32,532 nt of DNA from Bacteroidales bacterium (GTDB lineage: Bacteria; Bacteroidota; Bacteroidia; Bacteroidales; ML635J-15): positions 1-32,532 of the forward strand of contig JAQVOJ010000025.1 in assembly GCA_028702675.1 (NCBI GenBank), read 5' to 3'. The notes beneath the pieces are model-generated. The model searched no databases. It was given only the letters and a program-made list of their open reading frames with translations, and was not told where the DNA came from. A program made the translations under genes and the position numbers. Positions 990 through 1,336 of the stretch are shown here, piece after piece (the stretch's first letter is position 1; each line of letters starts with the position of its first letter).

Positions 990-1037
990 CTGCAACTTAA
1001 CCAAAATGCTGCTTCTGTGATACTCTTTGTAAAATGT
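990..1037 (+). repeat. 48-bp direct repeat, copy 1
   Basis: Copy 1 matches copy 2 (1223-1270) at 46 of 48 positions. The two differences are T/C transitions at the 29th and 41st bases. Both copies begin CTGCAACTTAACC and end AAAATGT. In both, a short TCT-loop hairpin follows three bases after the end, which suggests that repeat and hairpin form one unit. Confidence 0.9.
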
Positions 1038-1040
1038 TCC

Positions 1041-1053
1041 GCAGCTCTGCTGC
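1041..1053 (+). repeat. Short palindrome, TCT-loop hairpin family, member 1
   Basis: The sequence is GCAGC-TCT-GCTGC, a perfect 5-bp stem with a TCT loop. It is preceded by AAAATGT plus three pyrimidine-rich bases and followed by TTGG. It has the same stem as member 4 and the same flanks as member 3. Confidence 0.8.
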
Positions 1054-1106
1054 TTGGCGGTGTAGAATTTTTATCATATTTAGAAATTATCTTACCTATA
1101 GTTTGA

Positions 1107-1119
1107 GGTACAGAGTACC
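1107..1119 (-). repeat. Short palindrome, TCT-loop hairpin family, member 2 (inverted)
   Basis: The plus strand reads GGTAC-AGA-GTACC. On the minus strand this is GGTAC-TCT-GTACC, preceded by AATAT and TTC, which matches the flank of the other members. The stem is perfect but differs from members 1 and 4 at three inner positions, each change being compensated on the other arm. Confidence 0.75.
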
Positions 1120-1155
1120 GAAATATTGATAAAATAAGTGCTTTTTTTAGAAAAT

Positions 1156-1208
1156 GTTTTTGGCATGTGTTTTTGCTTTTCTTCGAGGCAAAAAACCATG
1201 CCAAAAAC
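1156..1208. repeat. Large stem-loop (12-bp perfect inverted repeat, 29-nt interior)
   Basis: Bases 1156-1167 (GTTTTTGGCATG) and 1197-1208 (CATGCCAAAAAC) are exact reverse complements. The interior can extend the stem: 1169-1176 pairs with 1188-1196 through GTTTTTGC and GCAAAAAAC with one bulged A. That leaves a T-rich 11-nt loop. No T-tract follows on either strand, so it does not look like a standard intrinsic terminator. It could end transcription of the upstream DUF2490 gene or belong to the repeat cluster. Confidence 0.7.
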
Positions 1209-1222
1209 CTTATTCTGCTTAT

Positions 1223-1270
1223 CTGCAACTTAACCAAAATGCTGCTTCTGCGATACTCTTTGCAAAATGT
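1223..1270 (+). repeat. 48-bp direct repeat, copy 2
   Basis: This is the second copy of the 990-1037 repeat, with the same orientation and length and two transitions. It is followed by the GGTAC-TCT-GCACC hairpin rather than GCAGC-TCT-GCTGC, so the hairpin stem has diverged faster than the 48-bp body. Confidence 0.9.
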
Positions 1271-1273
1271 CTC

Positions 1274-1286
1274 GGTACTCTGCACC
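1274..1286 (+). repeat. Short palindrome, TCT-loop hairpin family, member 3
   Basis: The sequence is GGTAC-TCT-GCACC, a 5-bp stem with one A/C mismatch. It is preceded by AAAATGT-CTC and followed by TTGT. The stem resembles member 2, and the flanks match member 1. Confidence 0.7.
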
Positions 1287-1323
1287 TTGTATCCTAACTG
1301 CCATTTGAAATTATAAATGTTTC

Positions 1324-1336
1324 GCAGCTCTGCTGC
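1324..1336 (+). repeat. Short palindrome, TCT-loop hairpin family, member 4
   Basis: The sequence is GCAGC-TCT-GCTGC with a perfect stem, preceded by AAATGT-TTC and followed by TTAG. It lies about 36 bp upstream of the ABC-F promoter's -33 box and lacks a preceding copy of the 48-bp repeat. Confidence 0.8.

Follow-up and report, generated by a model that had tools for sequence, protein, structure and literature searches.

Dispersed tagged hairpins in a Bacteroidales genome as probable REP-like elements associated with Y1 proteins of TnpA_Y1 subclass 1.2

The window analyzed in this study, a 32,532-nucleotide stretch of a Bacteroidales genome (contig JAQVOJ010000025.1), contains four short tagged hairpins between positions 1034 and 1336. 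They probably belong to a palindrome family occurring in Bacteroidota, whose members are non-autonomous REP-like elements with a HuH/Y1 protein of TnpA_Y1 subclass 1.2 as their cognate enzyme; the copies in the window's genome (G000) are probably relics. Direct observations are the number of copies, the tag, the paired stems, the location between genes, the borders of the units, and the association with a gene and with one protein clade. Homology and linkage suggest how such elements could spread: the subclass 1.2 enzyme would bind one exposed DNA strand folded as a hairpin and recognize the 5' AATATTTC tag together with the T of an NCT loop, while the stem would have to pair but would need no fixed sequence. 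It would then cut near the tag and rejoin the ends, thereby spreading REPIN-like units between genes; in G000, a past enzyme may have mobilized the units and left the present copies behind. Neither excision nor cleavage was observed, and no empty site came to light.

Hairpins in the window

All four palindromes of the sequence-only reading, two with the stem GCAGC/GCTGC, one with GGTAC/GTACC, and one with GGTAC/GCACC, each around a TCT loop, were recovered by direct reading and fit the motif ATRTYYC-N5-TCT-N5. The common prefix proposed with them, AAWATRTYYC, is exact in two of the four copies only, whereas the shorter ATRTYYC is present in all. The region is bounded by the end of an ORF at 967 and the start of a gene for an ABC-F type ATPase at 1425, and contains the following features.

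1034-1053, plus strand: tag ATGTTCC and hairpin GCAGC-TCT-GCTGC (hairpin 1041-1053), perfect stem; this type also occurs in contigs C122 and C151 and in the related genome G029.
1054-1106, plus strand: linker between inverted hairpins, TTGGCGGTGTAGA...CTATAGTTTGA; by alignment, common to C122, C151, C49, and C67, with a more diverged version in C77.
1107-1126, minus strand: hairpin GGTAC-TCT-GTACC (1107-1119) and tag ATATTTC, perfect stem, inverted with respect to 1034-1053.
1219-1266, plus strand: 5' module of a composite element, here in its second copy after a first one at 986-1033; a related module occurs in C151, C49, and C35.
1267-1286, plus strand: tag ATGTCTC and imperfect hairpin GGTAC-TCT-GCACC (1274-1286) with one A.C mismatch.
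1287-1316, plus strand: linker setting a hairpin-to-hairpin spacing of about 50 nt, which recurs in C122, C151, C49, C46, C35, and C77.
1317-1336, plus strand: tag ATGTTTC and hairpin GCAGC-TCT-GCTGC (1324-1336), perfect stem.

A direct repeat of 71 nt (986-1056 and 1219-1289) is 86% identical. The A.C mismatch at 1274-1286 on the TCT strand corresponds to a G.T pair on the opposite strand, and DNA folding gave no stable structure for the TCT strand of this copy. Isolated 5-bp DNA hairpins are weak in such calculations (-2.4 to -5 kcal/mol), which fits recognition of a hairpin stabilized by the enzyme, without being evidence for it. The sequence TATCTTTG (1399-1406), located shortly after the hairpins and about 20 bp ahead of the ABC-F type gene, resembles the -7 promoter box of Bacteroidota, TAnnTTTG.

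Copies across the genome

G000 (3.09 Mb, 188 contigs, 98.9% complete) was examined by pattern search, with the stretches near matches being read. As the exact tag AAWATRTYYC was too strict, the search tag was loosened to ATRTYYC. The pattern ATRTYYC-N5-TCT-N5-T has 51 sites, compared with 25 for the same pattern read backwards. All five stem positions pair at 17 of the 51 sites; 2000 permutations of the 3' arms gave 3.6 such sites on average and never more than 10, so that full pairing is commoner than chance predicts. One of the 17, CTAAA/TTTAG, is probably an A/T-rich chance match. In total, G000 contains about 18 tagged hairpins, and all 18 inspected copies are intergenic and occur in both orientations relative to the flanking genes. 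A literature search on the palindrome itself found nothing relevant.

The paired stems of G000 are GGTGC/GCACC (eight cases), GCAGC/GCTGC (four), GGTGC/GTACC with a G.T pair (two), GGTAT/GTACC (one), and GGTAC/GTACC (one); near-miss stems are GGTAC/GCACC and ATAGC/GCTGC. Both G029 and a Dyadobacter genome also have the GCAGC type alongside GGTGC; these are old, co-existing stem types forming separate subfamilies, so the stems differ mainly by changes that are not recent in G000. GGTAC/GTACC alone has the look of a recent compensated change, from GGTGC/GCACC by way of the wobble intermediates found. Thus the three compensated differences initially noted between GCAGC and GGTAC stems are present, but they mostly result from comparing two old subfamilies.

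Paired intergenic stems with wobble intermediates could also be kept by selection on a transcript, the hairpins serving as terminators, mRNA-end stabilizers, or small RNAs. This is highly unlikely, as both orientations occur within one intergenic region as well as relative to the flanking genes, the wobble intermediates are present on both strands, and the linkage to a Y1 gene described below would be left without explanation. Further, the hairpin region has no Rfam match at the gathering score, with tRNA the sole family matched elsewhere in the window, and a relaxed threshold yielded only chance-level matches to eukaryotic or unrelated families.

Composite units and their borders

The hairpins of G000 form a mosaic unit, [5' module]-tag-H1-37-nt linker-tag-H2-53-nt linker-H3 (inverted)-tag, with an H1-to-H2 spacing of 50-51 nt. 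Two partial units are present in the window, 1034-1126 (H2-H3) and 1219-1336 (module-H1-H2), split by an unrelated long hairpin repeat at 1153-1211. Units with inverted outer hairpins were found in C86, C122, C151, and C49, and related copies in C67 and C77. In the alignment, the units are alike up to the outer tag of H3 and diverge just beyond it, a pattern consistent with the tag marking the edge of a dispersed unit. The arrangement is a mosaic REPIN/BIME-like one, with tag-hairpin and hairpin-tag inverted relative to each other, as in the inverted pairs of canonical REPs, plus tandem units of about 50 nt. The sequence-only reading had proposed selection on, or copying of, a folded single strand; the copies are seen to be dispersed as composite units, and selection on the stems is conjectural. 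The ends of three contigs, C49, C122, and C151, fall inside the repeats or within about 100 bp of them, and so the G000 assembly probably breaks there.

The repeat at 1153-1211 is a different dispersed element, a long hairpin of the form GGCATG...CATGCC bordered by T runs, with a DNA fold of -17.9 kcal/mol (z -5.5). Matches to it on both strands account for much of one list of 38 matches. The surroundings of 13 copies were read, and several of these are situated between convergent genes. The repeat may be a bidirectional terminator or a miniature element.

Occurrence in other bacteria and linkage to a Y1 gene

A search with the exact hairpin pattern in one genome per species fetched 79 contig stretches, all labelled as Bacteroidota or Chlorobiota bins. 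The relatives G019 (15 copies) and G029 contain tandem units of 50-53 bp. Nearly regular arrays of hairpin units, around 20 units with a period of 54-56 bp, extend to the gene of a 158-aa Y1 transposase in Dyadobacter frigoris and Dyadobacter sp. CY356. These arrays (L108 3100-4350 and L154 3600-4850) are directly upstream of the Y1 gene, and some of their units are open in several reading frames. A CRISPR-like array was rejected for the Dyadobacter units, as the "spacers" are near-identical from unit to unit, and attC sites were rejected for lack of a cassette structure. G019 also has a second type of TCT-loop hairpin with a different flank (GAGCC/GGCTC and GAACC/GGTTC; L070 1810-1880, L077 2517), which shares regions with the GGTGC hairpins.

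Starting from the hairpins, 12 of the 79 fetched contigs were found by tblastn to carry the same type of Y1 gene, mostly within about 100 bp of a hairpin, and the search found no RAYT-type gene in the fetched contigs. Most of the hairpins closest to the gene are in inverted orientation on its two sides: those upstream are on the minus strand in 14 of 17 cases and those downstream on the plus strand in 9 of 11. The Y1 gene flanked by the same element, which the sequence-only reading suggested looking for, thus exists in relatives, usually with inverted copies on both sides; this arrangement, typical of canonical REPs, was not found in G000.

The partner protein contains the Pfam Y1_Tnp domain and scores above the NCBIfam cut-off for IS200 and below that for REP_Tyr_transpos; by sequence, its nearest solved structures are IS200-type transposases such as ISHp608. 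The motifs WQ and Y---Q--HH are kept in all 41 aligned proteins, with W94, Q95, Y114, Q118, H121, and H122 invariant, and the HuH motif is mostly DHIH or DHVH, in some cases NHIH. Since the signature of TnpA_Y1 subclass 1.2 is DH[IV]H, WQ, and Y---Q--HH (Quentin et al. 2018, PMC6006769), and WQ and Y---Q--HH match it, the partner is classified by its sequence as an IS200-related subclass 1.2 protein and not a canonical class 2 RAYT. The early parallel with REPs and Y1 transposases is therefore supported, as the same hairpins flank a Y1 gene in relatives, with the refinement that the partner is not a canonical RAYT. The survey of Quentin et al. (2018) entered subclass 1.2 as REP: "no" (PMC6006769).

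Specificity of hairpins and proteins

The linkage was also approached from the protein side, with 30 subclass 1.2 loci, chosen as those matching the protein best among 393 genomes of the order, to which the genes of G019 and G029 were added. A tag with a hairpin is present within 300 bp of the gene in 23 of the 32 loci and in 2 of 27 control segments, shuffles giving an expectation of 0.7, with a tag expression composed after examples had been seen. Among loci of a second set, drawn from the family of the window's genome, only 6 of 18 genes had the tag motif, compared with 1 of 15 controls. Because of this poor representation of the tag, a tag-free de novo test was used, counting any palindromic core that occurs at least twice in the 300-bp flanks. 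Such repeated palindromes are present in the flanks of 45 of 49 subclass 1.2 genes and in none of 42 segments located 900-1200 bp away. Since the latter are largely coding, flanks of ordinary genes served as a second control, with 7 positives out of 154. The loci are related to a varying degree, so that the counts in these tests are not fully independent.

On the maximum-likelihood tree of 41 proteins, the GGTGC-type hairpins require 3 changes, compared with 13.7 after shuffling (none of 500 shuffles was as low), and all proteins with such hairpins fall into one group of 20 rows with support 91/97. On the tagged strand, most loops in the flanks of this group read TCT or GCT, and the stems include GGTGC, GCGGC, GGGGC, GCTGC/GCAGC, GGCGC, and GCCCC. 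Hence the loop is constant and the stem is variable yet paired, and one subclass 1.2 clade goes with GGTGC-type, NCT-loop hairpins. A loop base is directly contacted in single-strand transposases and in some REP systems (PMC8266576).

The tandem 50-56 bp units and the chimeric hairpins of C67 point to recombination, and the arrays might have grown by replication slippage and recombination alone, their proximity to Y1 genes reflecting shared intergenic "repeat islands". We regard this as unlikely: the excess of repeated palindromes at subclass 1.2 genes over ordinary genes, the way the hairpin type follows the protein clade, and the dispersed copies with unrelated outer flanks all argue against it.

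Probable orphan copies and the RAYT genes of G000

Among the 393 genomes of the order, the subclass 1.2 gene is present in 13 of the 14 hairpin-positive ones (G000 excluded) and in 169 of the 379 negative ones (P = 3e-4). Protein searches detected no such gene in G000 (best E 0.33), and so its hairpins are probably orphaned relics, the gene having been lost or never present. It is also possible that the gene is hidden in an assembly gap, given the ends of contigs C49, C122, and C151. In G019 and G029, other palindromes flank the subclass 1.2 genes; the GGTGC arrays may therefore be generally orphaned in the window's family, and the putative cognate pairing of hairpin and gene is seen outside this family.

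The G000 assembly yielded no Y1 genes other than three of the RAYT type (L007, L008, and L009 on C130, C187, and C28), of which the two tested both match NCBIfam REP_Tyr_transpos. Mobilization of the hairpins in trans by these canonical genes is nevertheless extremely improbable, and we rejected them as the source: their flanks carry their own, different palindromes (CCGCACGAC/GTCGTGTGG and ACTCCGATA/TATCGGAGT), no TCT-tag hairpin lies beside any of the three, and RAYT-type genes are absent from the hairpin-fetched contigs. One of the three genes has an internal TAG.

More generally, we lean towards the view that the subclass 1.2 proteins of Bacteroidota are REPtron-like, with lineage-specific GTAG-less palindromes around the gene that can outlast it as orphans. 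They would represent a second, independent lineage, IS200-like and not RAYT, whose transposase-type proteins seem to sustain extragenic palindromes. Our observations point to a DNA on which this Y1 subclass, of previously unknown role, may act, and the many natural hairpin variants make testing of binding and cleavage straightforward.

Comparison with known systems

The hairpins resemble the REP and REPIN/BIME elements with their RAYT (TnpA_REP) proteins, known from Escherichia coli and the Stenotrophomonas REPtrons, in being short extragenic palindromes with a 5' tag, in their inverted pairs, clusters, and inverted flanking of a Y1 gene, and in stems that vary while pairing persists. In the Stenotrophomonas system, a 3-nt GCT loop matters (PMC8266576). 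In contrast to canonical REPs, the GT[AG]G foot is absent and an ATRTYYC tag (AATATTTC-like) is directly 5' of the stem, and the partner has Y---Q--HH where class 2 has a Y...NP motif. As in canonical REPs, the palindrome is multicopy and extragenic, but the about 18 copies are few for a REP; a copy number in the tens, not hundreds, counts against our preferred explanation, as do the weak stems, the tag motif at only 6 of 18 family-level genes, the failure to find a subclass 1.2 gene in G000, and the different palindromes beside such genes in G019 and G029.

The partner agrees with TnpA_Y1 subclass 1.2 (PMC6006769) in having DH[IV]H (in most cases), WQ, and Y---Q--HH, a length of about 150-160 aa, occurrence in Bacteroidota, and low copy number, whereas the repeated palindromes observed here at nearly all genes tested differ from the "no" for REP in that survey. 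The HuH/Y1 fold is shared with IS200/IS605 elements, and IS200-type transposases are the nearest solved structures. The hairpins are dispersed alone, mainly without the gene, and where the gene is present they are mostly inverted around it; in this they seem to differ from the fixed ends of IS200/IS605 elements.
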